Source: Terriglobia bacterium
GTDB lineage: Bacteria; Acidobacteriota; Terriglobia; Terriglobales; SCQP01
NCBI GenBank assembly: GCA_021323595.1
Contig: JAJPKR010000051.1
Span: 1-37,219, forward strand
Length of the DNA stretch: 37,219 nucleotides
Reading direction: 5' to 3'
How positions within the stretch are numbered: the stretch's first letter is position 1; every line of letters starts with the position of its first letter. The notes beneath the pieces are model-generated. The model saw only the letters and a program-made list of their open reading frames with translations, had not been told where the DNA came from and ran no database searches. The translations under genes and the position numbers were made by a program. Below are positions 15,335 to 21,678 of the stretch, one piece after another.

Positions 15335-15808
15335 GTGGCAACCCACCGCGTTCATCGCGCGATCGGCACGGCACTTCTTATGTTCCTCGTCTGGGCAGCG
15401 GCCGCCGGATTTGCGGCAGCCCAGGCCACGCCTGGCGCCCCCCCGTTTAGCTCGCTGGCGCAGGTACCTGAGGGCCACCTCGATCTCGCTGACCTCAACA
15501 TTCACTCGATTTACCCGGTGCTGCTCAAGGGCGGCCTCATCCCGTTCGACTTCCGGCTCACGTCGAATTCCCTGGTGAGCAGCCCCGCTGGCGGCGCATG
15601 GTCGGCGGGAGCGACGCTCGTTTACAACGCTGGCGCCGCCGTGGGCGAAGCCTTCCCCAACCGAACGGTGCAGGCACTCTGCCCCGGCGAGAAGAGCACC
15701 TGCGTGACCTATGGGACGTGTACCTGGGTCAACGAGTACAGCCAGTGGGAATACGACGATCGGCTTGGCACGCCGCACCCGCTTCAGGCCGGCACCGTCT
15801 ACGGCTGA
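15335..15808 (+). CDS. Exported RHS N-terminal fragment
   Basis: 157 residues starting at GTG 15335 behind a perfect AGGAGG (15321-15326). It has a Sec signal peptide (about 1-30, hydrophobic GTALLMFLVWAAAAGFAAAQ). The mature part (LADLNIHSIYPVLLKGGLIPFDFRLTSNS, CTWVNEYSQWEYDDRLGTPHP) looks like the N-terminal beta-rich region of exported RHS/YD-repeat proteins, but the frame stops at TGA 15806-15808 before any YD repeat. Six bases later the RHS C-terminal half begins in another frame. A normal RHS gene would have kilobases of YD repeats between these parts. This therefore looks like the 5' end of a gene that lost its middle, or an assembly collapse. The relation to RHS proteins is by pattern. 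Confidence 0.75.
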   Translation: MATHRVHRAIGTALLMFLVWAAAAGFAAAQATPGAPPFSSLAQVPEGHLDLADLNIHSIYPVLLKGGLIPFDFRLTSNSLVSSPAGGAWSAGATLVYNAGAAVGEAFPNRTVQALCPGEKSTCVTYGTCTWVNEYSQWEYDDRLGTPHPLQAGTVYG

Positions 15809-15813
15809 ATTCG

Positions 15814-17271
15814 ATGTCCACTTCCAATTCCACGTTCGTCTATGATCGCTGGGGCAACCTGACACAGGCCACCGGCGCGCAAAACTGGAACGTCAGCTTC
15901 AACGGCGCCAACCAGGTTGCCGGGTTTTCCTACGACAGCGACGGCCGCCTGACCAACGACGGTTCGGCCGCCTACAGTTGGGACGACCTCAACGAGATGA
16001 CCGGCTACAATTCCAGCTCGACGAGCAGCTACGACTATGACCCGCTTGGCCGCCGCAGCCGCTCCGCTACGCCGTCGGGCAGCTTCGACTACTTGTACGG
16101 GGTCGGCGGGTCGCTGCGGGGCGTGTGGAGCGAATCGGCGGGGGGCTGGTCGCGTCTGGAAATCGGCGTGGCGGGGCTGGAGCTGGAGACCTACGATGCT
16201 TCGCCGCCGAGCGGCTACTCGGCTTTCACCTACAACGCCGTCAACGCGCTTGGCTCGGAGTCGTTCCGCTACAACGCCGGCGCCGGCGCGCTGAACTACC
16301 ATTACCTGCCCTTCGGTTTGGGCTCGCCGGGCCAAGGGAGCGACCCGACCACGAATTTGCACTGGACCGGGCAAGAGCAGGACGGCGAGAGCGGGCTTTA
16401 TCATTTTCGCTACCGCAACTACTCGCCGCTCGAGAGCCGCTGGCTCTCGCCCGATCCTGCCGGCTGGGCGGCGGCGGACCCGGCCGATCCACAGAGCTTC
16501 AATCGCTACAGCTACGCCGGCAAAAGCCCCTGCTCGGCCACCGACCCACTGGGCCTCGCCAACTGCCCGCCCGGCTACCACGTGCTGACCGCACGGGAAG
16601 CGACAGACGTCGTCGCCGCGGCTGCGGCGCTGGCGAGGCAGACCAACCTAAGCATGTGGAAATGCGGTGAGGGCGGAAACGAAATCGCCGGGACGCGGGG
16701 CCATCCGAATCCCATAGACTGCACCCACTTCATCCACCTAGCCATCCAGGACGCCGGGCTGTGGACGCCGTACGAAAACACTGCGCAAATGGCGAGATTC
16801 GGCGGTTCCCTCAGCTACAACTATTACCTTCCGGACCCGACGCCGGGCGGGCAAGTCGGCGACGTCGTGGTGCTCGACGCGGGCGGCGGCTTCGCGACCC
16901 ACGCCGTACTAATCGGCGGCACAAACCCGCTTAAGCTGTACGCAAGCAACGAGCATCGCGGCTACTTACCGCCCGGCGGCCCGCAGCGTGGTGTAGGCGG
17001 CCCGCAGGAGGTCGGAGATTCCTGGTGGACCGGCCGCGCCAATAGCGGGTTGGTGTTGCGGCCCTGTGTGAAGTTGGCGCTCCCGCCGAGCCGGGTGGAG
17101 GGCGGCGGGGGCGGCCCGATCTTCTTCCAGCCGACCGGCGCTGCCGGCCAGTGGCGGTTCGACTGGTGGGTGGAGTTCGGCACGGACGAAGAGACGGGCG
17201 AGCCCTTTGTTATCGGCCTCGGCGGCATGTGGCAGTGGGCGCCGAATGCAGACTGGCGACCGACGCTATGA
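15814..17271 (+). CDS. RHS core protein with NlpC/P60-like C-terminal tip (putative polymorphic toxin)
   Basis: 485 residues from ATG 15814. Residues 1-240 are YD repeats (FVYDRWGNLTQ, FSYDSDGRLTNDG, YDYDPLGRRSR). The RHS-associated core follows: LYHFRYRNYSPLESRWLSPDP near 195, and NRYSYAGKSPCSATDPLGLA ending at 249. DPLG is the usual boundary of RHS toxins. The tip (250-485) carries IDCTHFIHLAIQDAGL (Cys303), then GDVVVLDAGGGFATHAVLIGG (His363) and YASNEH, the Cys-His order and spacing of NlpC/P60 or CHAP peptidoglycan hydrolases. Inferred role: a cell-wall-degrading effector. It has no signal sequence of its own; the signal lies in the preceding out-of-frame gene. It may start by re-initiation six bases after that gene's stop. 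The next gene overlaps its stop by ATGA. Confidence 0.82.
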   Translation: MSTSNSTFVYDRWGNLTQATGAQNWNVSFNGANQVAGFSYDSDGRLTNDGSAAYSWDDLNEMTGYNSSSTSSYDYDPLGRRSRSATPSGSFDYLYGVGGSLRGVWSESAGGWSRLEIGVAGLELETYDASPPSGYSAFTYNAVNALGSESFRYNAGAGALNYHYLPFGLGSPGQGSDPTTNLHWTGQEQDGESGLYHFRYRNYSPLESRWLSPDPAGWAAADPADPQSFNRYSYAGKSPCSATDPLGLANCPPGYHVLTAREATDVVAAAAALARQTNLSMWKCGEGGNEIAGTRGHPNPIDCTHFIHLAIQDAGLWTPYENTAQMARFGGSLSYNYYLPDPTPGGQVGDVVVLDAGGGFATHAVLIGGTNPLKLYASNEHRGYLPPGGPQRGVGGPQEVGDSWWTGRANSGLVLRPCVKLALPPSRVEGGGGGPIFFQPTGAAGQWRFDWWVEFGTDEETGEPFVIGLGGMWQWAPNADWRPTL

Positions 17272-18206
17272 GGTCTCGGTGGCTGTGGACTTTCATCTGC
17301 CTTGGGGTGCTCTCGCCGTCGGCGGGCGTCGCGGGTGCGTGCCAGGCAGGCGGCATCCCCTCCTCGAGTTTGCGTTCCCGGCAAGTCGGTTGGAGAGAAG
17401 CTGGCACCAAAGAATGCTTCGTCTTCGGGCGCGGGGGTGGGGCCTGGGTATCCTGTGGGAACCAAATTCACCGGATTTCAACGGCAGCCTGGCATGGCCT
17501 CGTTGTTGCTCCCCGGGGAGATTTCGTGCTAATCTTCGCGGCCCGTGGGAGGCCGCTGGTGGTTGCCCTCCGACCTCCATACCGGGTCCACCAGCCGCCC
17601 TACCCCGGGCGCTTCGACTGGTGGAACGGGGATTACTATATGGCGCCGACCTGCGGTACGATCCTGGCCGACCAGGAGCAGTTCGATATTCTCGCCGGCC
17701 GCCACGTTGCATTCGACGACTACGGCAGCGTCCGCTGCAGTGACGACCGCCGCGTCGTCGTCGGGATGTGGCGTTCCAATCTGGCTTTTTCCGAATTTGA
17801 GCTAAGGCAGGGCGCCGAGGTCCTCGATCGGCACGTGGATGGGCTCAGCTATGCGGTTAGCCCCAACGGTCGTTTTATCGCGTGGCTGGCCGAGCCTACG
17901 CCCTTCAAGCTACAGGTCGCCGTTCGTTCGGCCGCCGGAGCCACCTTGATGGCGCCATTGCGGAGCGACCTGTATAGCCCAAATCTCAGCACTGTGTCCG
18001 ATGGGGGCGATGCCATCTTCGACGCTGCTTGGGGCGATCTCCCCTATCAGGTCGGGGTGTTCCACTGGCACCCCGGCATGAGCCAACCGGCGTTGCTGCT
18101 AACTGACGCCGATGGCCCGCAGTGGGTCACGCCGGCAACGGCGCGGGCGCTGATCGCCCGCTACGAGTACCTGGGCAAGCATCCGCAGCCGGGACAGCCG
18201 CGCTAG
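17268..18206 (+). CDS. Exported protein, probable immunity partner of the RHS tip
   Basis: 312 residues beginning at ATG 17268 inside the stop of the RHS gene (ATGA), a sign of translational coupling. The N-terminus MRSRWLWTFICLGVLSPSAGVAGA reads as a Sec signal, possibly followed by a cysteine at the cleavage site. The mature part has propeller-like strands such as YAVSPNGRFIAWLA and several tryptophan/tyrosine-rich turns; no named family is recognised. A toxin that attacks peptidoglycan acts outside the cytoplasm, so an exported immunity protein would be in the right place. Immunity is inferred from position and compartment only. The frame extends upstream to 17151, but that part lies inside the RHS gene. 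Confidence 0.8.
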   Translation: MRSRWLWTFICLGVLSPSAGVAGACQAGGIPSSSLRSRQVGWREAGTKECFVFGRGGGAWVSCGNQIHRISTAAWHGLVVAPRGDFVLIFAARGRPLVVALRPPYRVHQPPYPGRFDWWNGDYYMAPTCGTILADQEQFDILAGRHVAFDDYGSVRCSDDRRVVVGMWRSNLAFSEFELRQGAEVLDRHVDGLSYAVSPNGRFIAWLAEPTPFKLQVAVRSAAGATLMAPLRSDLYSPNLSTVSDGGDAIFDAAWGDLPYQVGVFHWHPGMSQPALLLTDADGPQWVTPATARALIARYEYLGKHPQPGQPR

Positions 18207-20550: not shown

Positions 20551-21678
20551 TTACAGCGGCGACCACTTGGCTTCCGCGCCCTTGGGCTCGATCCAGTCGT
20601 TGTCGGCCGCCAGCAGTTCATTCACCGCGGCGATGTCGGCGGGGCTGGGCAAGACCGCCGCCAGATGGCGTGCGTGTTCCTCGGCCGTTTGCGGTTCGCC
20701 GGTGAGGCTGAAGCACTTGCCGGCGTATTGGCCGATGTGGCGGTTGAACTTGATGTCGGGCGCGAACAGCTTCTCTTGCCCCTCGGGGATCAGCCGATTC
20801 AGCGACTGGATCAGGCTGTTGACCTCCTCGAAATAGAGACGCCGCGCCGCGTCGTTCAGCGTGTCGAGGTCGGCGGGCTGGGCGTTGGTGTGCTCGTCGT
20901 AGCGTCCCTTCAGACCCCAGACATACGCCCAATGCGCCGAGGAAGAGAAGTCGGTGCCGAAGAGATCGTAGGCGGTCGGGATCCACTTGTTGAAGTACTT
21001 CTGGATGTAGCGCAGCGGCACGCGGCCGCGCTTGACGATGCGCCGCAGCCCATCGTTGCCGGTGCCGAGATGGAACGATTCCTCCTTGAGCATCGGCACC
21101 ATGCTTTGCGCCAGCGGCGCGAAGGCGGAGTGGCTCAGCATCTGCAACTGGAACTTGCCGTCGCGATCGATGAACTGCGTATAGGTATAGAAGTCGAGCC
21201 AGTTCTCGACGCTCTCGTTGAAGGAGCCGAGCAGGCGCTCGGCGTTGAAGGCGCGCCGCTCGAGCAGCTTTTGCGCTTCGATGCGGCCGGCATGGCCGAA
21301 ATGGCCGATCAGCAGATGGCACATCTGGAAGCCGTGCCGCATCTCTTCGGTCATCACCCGCGCCAGCGCCTTGCGGTCGTATTCGGTGGGCGCGCCGATA
21401 AACAGGTTGCGCTGCTGCTCGACGGAGGCGAACTCGGTGTCGCCTTGATAGACGATGAGGTTGAGCAGCGCGTCCTGCGCGCGTTGATCGGGGATTTGCC
21501 GCACGCGCTGCCAGCGCGCCTGCCCGCGATAGGCGCCGAATTCGATCTCGGTGCTGTGCAGCGGCCCGTACTTGGCCTCGAACTGATATTGCTTGAGCTC
21601 GGGATAGTCGAGGCCGATGTCTTTTTGCCAGCCCTGGAACAGGTCAACCCAATCGTCGAAGGTGGAAATCTTGGCCAT
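20551..21678 (-). CDS. BoxB-like di-iron aryl-CoA oxygenase (PaaA/BoxB family)
   Basis: 375-residue ferritin-like di-iron protein. QGDTEFASVEQQR, EEMRHGFQMCHLL, FIDRDGKFQLQMLSHSAFAPLA and LKEESFHLGTGN match BoxB, the oxygenase component of benzoyl-CoA 2,3-epoxidase. Probable iron ligands are Glu82, Glu112, His115, Asp171, Glu200 and His203. Their spacing (30, 3, 56, 29, 3) agrees closely with the BoxB ligand set as I recall it. Classical BoxB is about 470 residues; this one lacks roughly 40 at the N-terminus and more at the C-terminus, so it may be a separate clade with another aryl-CoA substrate. A GGAGG precedes ATG 21678. It is 27 bases after the aldehyde dehydrogenase gene. The reductase partner (BoxA) is not in the window. 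Confidence 0.85.
   Translation of the reverse strand: MAKISTFDDWVDLFQGWQKDIGLDYPELKQYQFEAKYGPLHSTEIEFGAYRGQARWQRVRQIPDQRAQDALLNLIVYQGDTEFASVEQQRNLFIGAPTEYDRKALARVMTEEMRHGFQMCHLLIGHFGHAGRIEAQKLLERRAFNAERLLGSFNESVENWLDFYTYTQFIDRDGKFQLQMLSHSAFAPLAQSMVPMLKEESFHLGTGNDGLRRIVKRGRVPLRYIQKYFNKWIPTAYDLFGTDFSSSAHWAYVWGLKGRYDEHTNAQPADLDTLNDAARRLYFEEVNSLIQSLNRLIPEGQEKLFAPDIKFNRHIGQYAGKCFSLTGEPQTAEEHARHLAAVLPSPADIAAVNELLAADNDWIEPKGAEAKWSPL

Follow-up and report, generated by a model that had tools for sequence, protein, structure and literature searches.

Toxins with NlpC/P60 domains (Tox-NLPC/P60) have been described from RHS, PVC and T6SS polymorphic systems of Bacteroidetes and deltaproteobacteria, and NlpC/P60 RHS tips were already listed there in 2012, and no family was named for their immunity (Zhang et al. 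2012, PMC3482391). Canonical NlpC/P60 members are peptidoglycan peptidases, and permuted NlpC/P60 toxins are phospholipases (PMC12994826). In Pseudomonas aeruginosa, the NlpC/P60-like enzyme Tse1 (Tae1) is met by the periplasmic partner Tsi1, which blocks the Tse1 active site and consists of three sheets, reminiscent of a propeller in fragments, with a short helix at the C-terminus (PMC3391265). Orphan rhs-CT/rhsI and cdiA-CT/cdiI cassettes, with a cut-down core, a tip and an immunity gene, lack the part for delivery (Poole et al. 2011, PMC3150448), and orphan immunity genes have also been described from Rhs systems (PMC10539506).

We examined a window of 37,219 nucleotides (the whole stretch of DNA that was analysed) from a Terriglobia bacterium, and identified an RHS core ending in DPxGL, then a variable tip and, directly 3′ of the tip ORF, a candidate immunity gene, as is the layout of RHS polymorphic toxins (Table 1). 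The ORF matched TIGR03696 with 63.9 bits (cut-off 32.5). Like Tox-NLPC/P60, the locus has a predicted papain-like NlpC/P60 domain as putative RHS C-terminal toxin, expected to cut the wall; unlike Tox-NLPC/P60 (PMC3482391), it belongs to Acidobacteriota, with a Sec-signal RHS protein and a linked exported partner. We consider it moderately probable that the pair is a peptidoglycan-hydrolase RHS tip and a periplasmic propeller immunity protein, with the window copy being orphan-like. The kind of toxin is thus already known, and it is the partner, the putative antidote, whose family is new to the libraries searched. A first-pass annotation of this DNA had pointed out the DPLG boundary, DCTHFIH and, 60 residues on, GDVVVLD...ATHAVLIGG, all of which we found in place. 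It had also noted an ATGA overlap with an exported, unrecognised next gene; indeed, the stop of the tip ORF overlaps the start of the partner ORF at 17268-17271, and the partner has a signal-like start and no credible family match.

Table 1 Features of the RHS locus in the window (tip residue 1 is the Leu at 16555)
Feature	Position	Strand	Details
N-terminal fragment of a Sec-signal RHS protein	15335-15808	+	157 codons, then TGA; frame differs from the rest
Apparent deletion junction, out of frame	15797-15813	+	homology to the L048 RHS protein stops at residue 155 and resumes at 1071
C-terminal RHS core and tip ORF	15814-17271	+	485 aa counted from ATG
RHS-associated core domain TIGR03696	16303-16557	+	closes at DPLGL
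DPLGL boundary	16543-16557	+	
Variable tip	16555-17268	+	238 aa; NlpC/P60-like domain at residues ~10-175, Gly-rich C-terminal part
DCTHF motif	16717-16731	+	candidate catalytic Cys56 (codon 16720-16722)
GDVVVLD strand (16858-16878) and THAVLIGG strand	16858-16920	+	candidate catalytic His116 (codon 16900-16902)
Exported partner, candidate immunity protein	17268-18206	+	312 aa; predicted beta-propeller and C-terminal helix
Probable Sec signal peptide	17268-17339	+	MRSRWLWTFICLGVLSPSAGVAGA/C; from sequence and hydrophobicity
TCGT motif	17649-17660	+	invariant in six partner homologues
C-terminal motif PQWVTPATARALIARYEYL	18117-18173	+	predicted helix

Among 60 near genomes, convincing relatives of the tip were found in one sister MAG (G002, Acidobacteriota; records DAHVCP010000038 and DAHVCP010000053), at two loci referred to here as L048 and L049 (also numbered L021 and L026), so that three tip loci are known. 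A tip profile run on 397 genomes of the order recovered the same three loci, in addition to three exported NlpC/P60 proteins of ~190 aa at the threshold. No relatives were detected in a single-sequence scan of the genome contigs with the tip or in viral contigs with the tip profile, and phylum-wide searches with the tip and partner profiles (396 genomes each) gave no convincing new relatives, the partner profile having two matches near E 1e-3. The ordinary exported NlpC/P60 proteins of the order (L029, L030 and L031) resemble the tip in their DCSHF, PGDLIVW and HVGI-type motifs; unlike the tip, they are stand-alone proteins of ~190 aa without RHS.

The candidate catalytic residues of the tip, Cys56 within DCTHFIH and His116, are 60 residues apart. 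D55, C56 and H58 are invariant across the three tips, with L049 reading DCSHE where the window has DCTHF. All three tips matched PF00877 (NLPC_P60, cut-off 23 bits), although only L048 exceeded the cut-off (28.4 bits), with L049 (17.2 bits) and the window copy (14.0 bits) remaining below it. Since the Cys-His frame is kept in both relatives, one of which is above the NLPC_P60 cut-off, the motif goes beyond chance. The tip also has the canonical traits of the family, namely DC[ST]xF with the Cys at a helix N-terminus, and a GD-hydrophobic strand followed by a His-initial strand (H116AVLI), with the Cys before the His. A match of the L048 tip to the NCBIfam entry EntFM_CwpFM (14.9 bits against a cut-off of 720) was rejected as an identity, as it reflects the NlpC/P60 domain at most.

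The AlphaFold model of the tip, built from an alignment of three sequences, was weak (mean pLDDT 46). In this low-confidence model, Cys56 lies just ahead of a helix (58-66) and His116 starts a strand (116-120). VIA-align listed 15 PDB entries for the model, of which at least 11 were NlpC/P60 or Tae1/Tae4 enzymes (2hbw, 4fdy, 4xcm, 3i86, 2xiv, 4q4g, 4eob, 4fge, 7tvh, 4fgi and 4jur; Z 4.5-8.7), including 2hbw (Z 8.7, rmsd 4.8, 126 aligned), 4xcm (Z 7.1, rmsd 3.7, 112 aligned) and Tse1 itself (4eob; Z 5.3, rmsd 3.9, 116 aligned). These 11 entries were assigned by their titles or as well-established members of these families. The remaining four entries were a diffocin baseplate chain, an autolysin domain, an unnamed bacterial peptidase and an integrative YjcM-YjcN model. 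Foldseek with the same weak model (pLDDT 46) returned no significant match. Where NlpC/P60 enzymes usually have a His as third catalytic residue, the tip has an aromatic residue in the alignment, which makes the catalytic triad uncertain; the invariant Asn132 near this position is a candidate third polar residue only.

Judged by sequence, the tip family is homologous to NlpC/P60, and the window tip would act as a canonical cysteine peptidase of this family, with the Cys before the His. The NlpC/P60 likeness proposed in the first-pass annotation thus stands through L048, which passes PF00877, while the window copy scores below the cut-off and the structure comparison uses a low-confidence model. 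As permuted NlpC/P60 toxins are phospholipases, and papain-like RHS tips are known from several other clades (PMC3482391), the tip might instead be an enzyme of the NlpC/P60 superfamily that acts on lipids or proteins and not on peptidoglycan; we find this very unlikely, considering that the Cys-then-His order of the tip is the canonical one, tied to peptidoglycan peptidases (PMC12994826), and that the partner is exported.

A partner homologue lies directly after the tip in all three loci, with an ATGA overlap in the window, a TTGA overlap in L048 and an ATG 8 nt past the stop in L049. When L048 is compared with L049, protein identity amounts to 93% in the RHS core (658/714 at the DNA level), falling to 57% in the tip and 47% in the partner, and the drop occurs at the DPTGL boundary. 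Such a conserved core beside a diverging tip and partner is a mark of a polymorphic toxin/immunity cassette. We therefore propose that the tip would be the toxin domain of a polymorphic RHS protein, cutting peptidoglycan peptides in the periplasm of the target cell. In the intact form, from the sister MAG, this domain would make up the last ~230 residues of an RHS shell protein that is exported through Sec and has no PAAR, and its release would occur at the conserved DP(L/T)GL boundary. The immunity protein would be the coupled exported propeller: like Tsi1 with Tse1, it would bind the peptidase within the periplasm of the producing cell and plug it.

The partner starts with a charged stretch, followed by a hydrophobic one ending in AGA/C. 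A second Cys is likewise common to all six homologues, and the Cys of TCGT and Cys157 are a candidate disulfide pair; a C-terminal PQW...ALIARY stretch is present in most of them. No credible family match was obtained in Pfam, NCBIfam or PADLOC (a weak match to Pfam HAD_PNKP, E 0.32, was judged as noise), and by its sequence the family is new to these libraries. In this respect, the undescribed immunity family announced in the first-pass annotation held up, its immunity role being what we infer. The partner model, built like that of the tip from a three-sequence alignment (mean pLDDT 46-47 for the two), is all-beta, with residues 289-304 forming a C-terminal helix, and has fair confidence only at residues ~190-280. 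The closest folds to this weak model were TolB and other propellers (2ojh: Z 10.4, rmsd 4.0, 143 aligned), and the partner is accordingly predicted to be a beta-propeller with a C-terminal helix. Like Tse1/Tsi1 (PMC3391265), the locus would hence pair an NlpC/P60-like enzyme with a periplasmic partner of propeller plan, the latter predicted here; unlike the window tip, Tse1 is not part of an RHS protein but a free effector of a T6SS. The partner profile credibly matched no chain among PDB sequences, and the likeness in predicted plan to Tsi1 may therefore be convergent or reflect distant homology to the Tsi1/Tai1 family. A second propeller-type guard of an NlpC/P60 toxin would suggest that the propeller shape suits that cleft, and the locus offers a candidate immunity family for NlpC/P60 RHS tips.

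The first-pass annotation asked whether the partner always follows this tip in other genomes, which is the case in 3/3 tip loci; from the side of the partner, three of the six homologues (in G010, G125 and G011) stand alone, without an RHS neighbour. Their homology is solid (hhalign probability 97-99.9%), and no RHS core match was detected in G011. Perhaps, then, the partner is a general exported propeller, such as a periplasmic binding or scaffold protein or an aid in export or folding, rather than an immunity protein. We regard this as unlikely, since the stop-start overlap or 8-nt spacing is kept in 3/3 loci, and the tip and the partner diverge together beside a 93% identical core. Furthermore, only 6 of the 397 genomes of the order had any match to the partner profile, a rarity which fits orphan immunity, with its precedent in Rhs systems (PMC10539506), better than housekeeping. 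The partner match in G131 (E 1e-4) falls within a 544-aa protein made up of YVTN-like repeats, and we disregarded it. At the stand-alone homologue in G125 (L040; C67, 5437-6495 and neighbours), the ends of the flanking genes have a similar stretch, GMVYD.GE, as if genes had been inserted in series.

Unlike L048, in which the full-length export-competent RHS shell is intact, the window has a broken RHS gene. The ORF at 15335-15808 aligns with residues 2-155 of the intact L048 RHS protein at 54% identity, and the ORF at 15814-17271 is 51% identical to its residues 1071-1492; relative to L048, ~915 internal codons are absent. By this comparison, the window RHS gene is an out-of-frame internal-deletion derivative, and its toxin is therefore probably silent and undelivered. 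As the full-length shell is absent, we classed the window copy as a broken or orphan RHS form and not as a working toxin gene. The toxin would be devoid of signal and shell, and the partner has its own signal; if this copy has a function at all, it is thus most likely that of an orphan immunity cassette, in which the toxin would probably stay unexported and immunity could still be made. It is similar in this to the cassettes of Poole et al. (PMC3150448), which likewise lack the delivery part; unlike them, it has an RHS N-terminal fragment directly upstream, out of frame. The toxin-immunity pair acting outside the cytoplasm, as proposed in the first-pass annotation, is thus favoured by the adjacency in 3/3 loci, the core/tip divergence and the layout with an envelope partner, with the immunity itself inferred; that annotation had missed the break, which makes delivery of the toxin from this copy improbable.

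The loss of ~915 codons out of frame, and a search upstream of 15814 in which no Shine-Dalgarno-like sequence was seen, could also mean that the window locus is a decaying pseudogene, whose tip and partner are functionless remnants in this strain. This reading is unlikely: the ORFs of 485 and 312 codons are both uninterrupted with the motif residues intact, and orphan CdiA-CT/CdiI modules elsewhere stay functional with an expressed immunity gene (PMC3150448). In addition, the TGA at 15806-15808 is only 5 nt upstream of the ATG at 15814, so coupled re-initiation at 15814 is possible. On the other hand, the break might be an assembly chimera and the organism might carry an intact gene, given that this is a metagenome assembly in which many RHS genes stop at contig ends. 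However, no second full copy of the 201-bp junction region was found in the genome (the best was a 78% match over 67 bp), so no long shared word accounts for a misjoin, and we consider a chimera quite unlikely. The orphan immunity cassette remains our preferred reading of the window copy.

VipB (PF05943, T6SS sheath) had no match in the 97.6% complete genome, and no PAAR was found in the intact L048 RHS protein, of which the N-terminus is Sec-type; neither the sheath nor the PAAR/VgrG link of T6SS effectors was thus found. Among the RHS tips surveyed in the bacterial family, the next ORF starts near or before the tip stop in 27/27 (distances are approximate, as partner starts were set by a mechanical rule). 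An N-terminal hydrophobic or membrane segment was detected in 23 of these 27 following ORFs; the same hydrophobicity test, a crude one, was also passed by 9 of 20 ordinary genes of the window. In bacteria in which we found no gene for a T6SS sheath, RHS tips hence routinely come with an envelope protein as partner, and one may ask by what route such toxins are delivered. Tentatively, and with more doubt than confidence, we suggest that this Acidobacteriota family has a Sec-exported, T6SS-independent RHS system with envelope-attacking tips, each having an exported or membrane antidote, and that the propeller family would be an independent counterpart of Tsi1, which would also occur as stand-alone antidotes against toxins of neighbours.

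Arrays of truncated RHS cores are common in the family, which recalls the orphan cassettes of Poole et al. (PMC3150448); in G002:C27 (L097) and G010:C222 (L095), 4-5 such cores are spaced at ~2 kb, and most of them have their own tip and downstream gene. The tips at G000:C6 (L126) and G005:C16 (L114) are 40% identical over 171 aa, core end included, and an exported propeller-looking protein follows each. We considered them as a second propeller-partner pair and rejected this, since their partners are unrelated in sequence to each other and to the window partner family, so the pair was not used as support.

Other tips in the family had different motifs. On the minus strand of G000:C28 near 58455 (L058/L124), an RHS tip with the L,D-transpeptidase-like motif DIHGGGHSLG...PTMGCTRACNADVIRL and no Pfam match is followed by a coupled exported ORF. 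Near 20718 of G000:C32 (L051/L127), the tip, also with no Pfam match, ends in ISEGCSVVACSMY, and its stop coincides with a coupled gene for a lipoprotein-like product of 204 aa. The tips at G002:C5 (L096) and G002:C45 (L102) are related, have a Cys-rich end and are followed by small ORFs without signal, which suggests action in the cytoplasm. Two RHS cores (1317 and 2858) with identical tips share the small contig G000:C23 (L122), either through recent duplication or as an assembly effect. Finally, the RHS tip at G006:C46 (L100) differs from the others of the family: its motif, SHEIGHIFGIRHH, resembles that of a zinc metallopeptidase, and it lies in AT-rich DNA.
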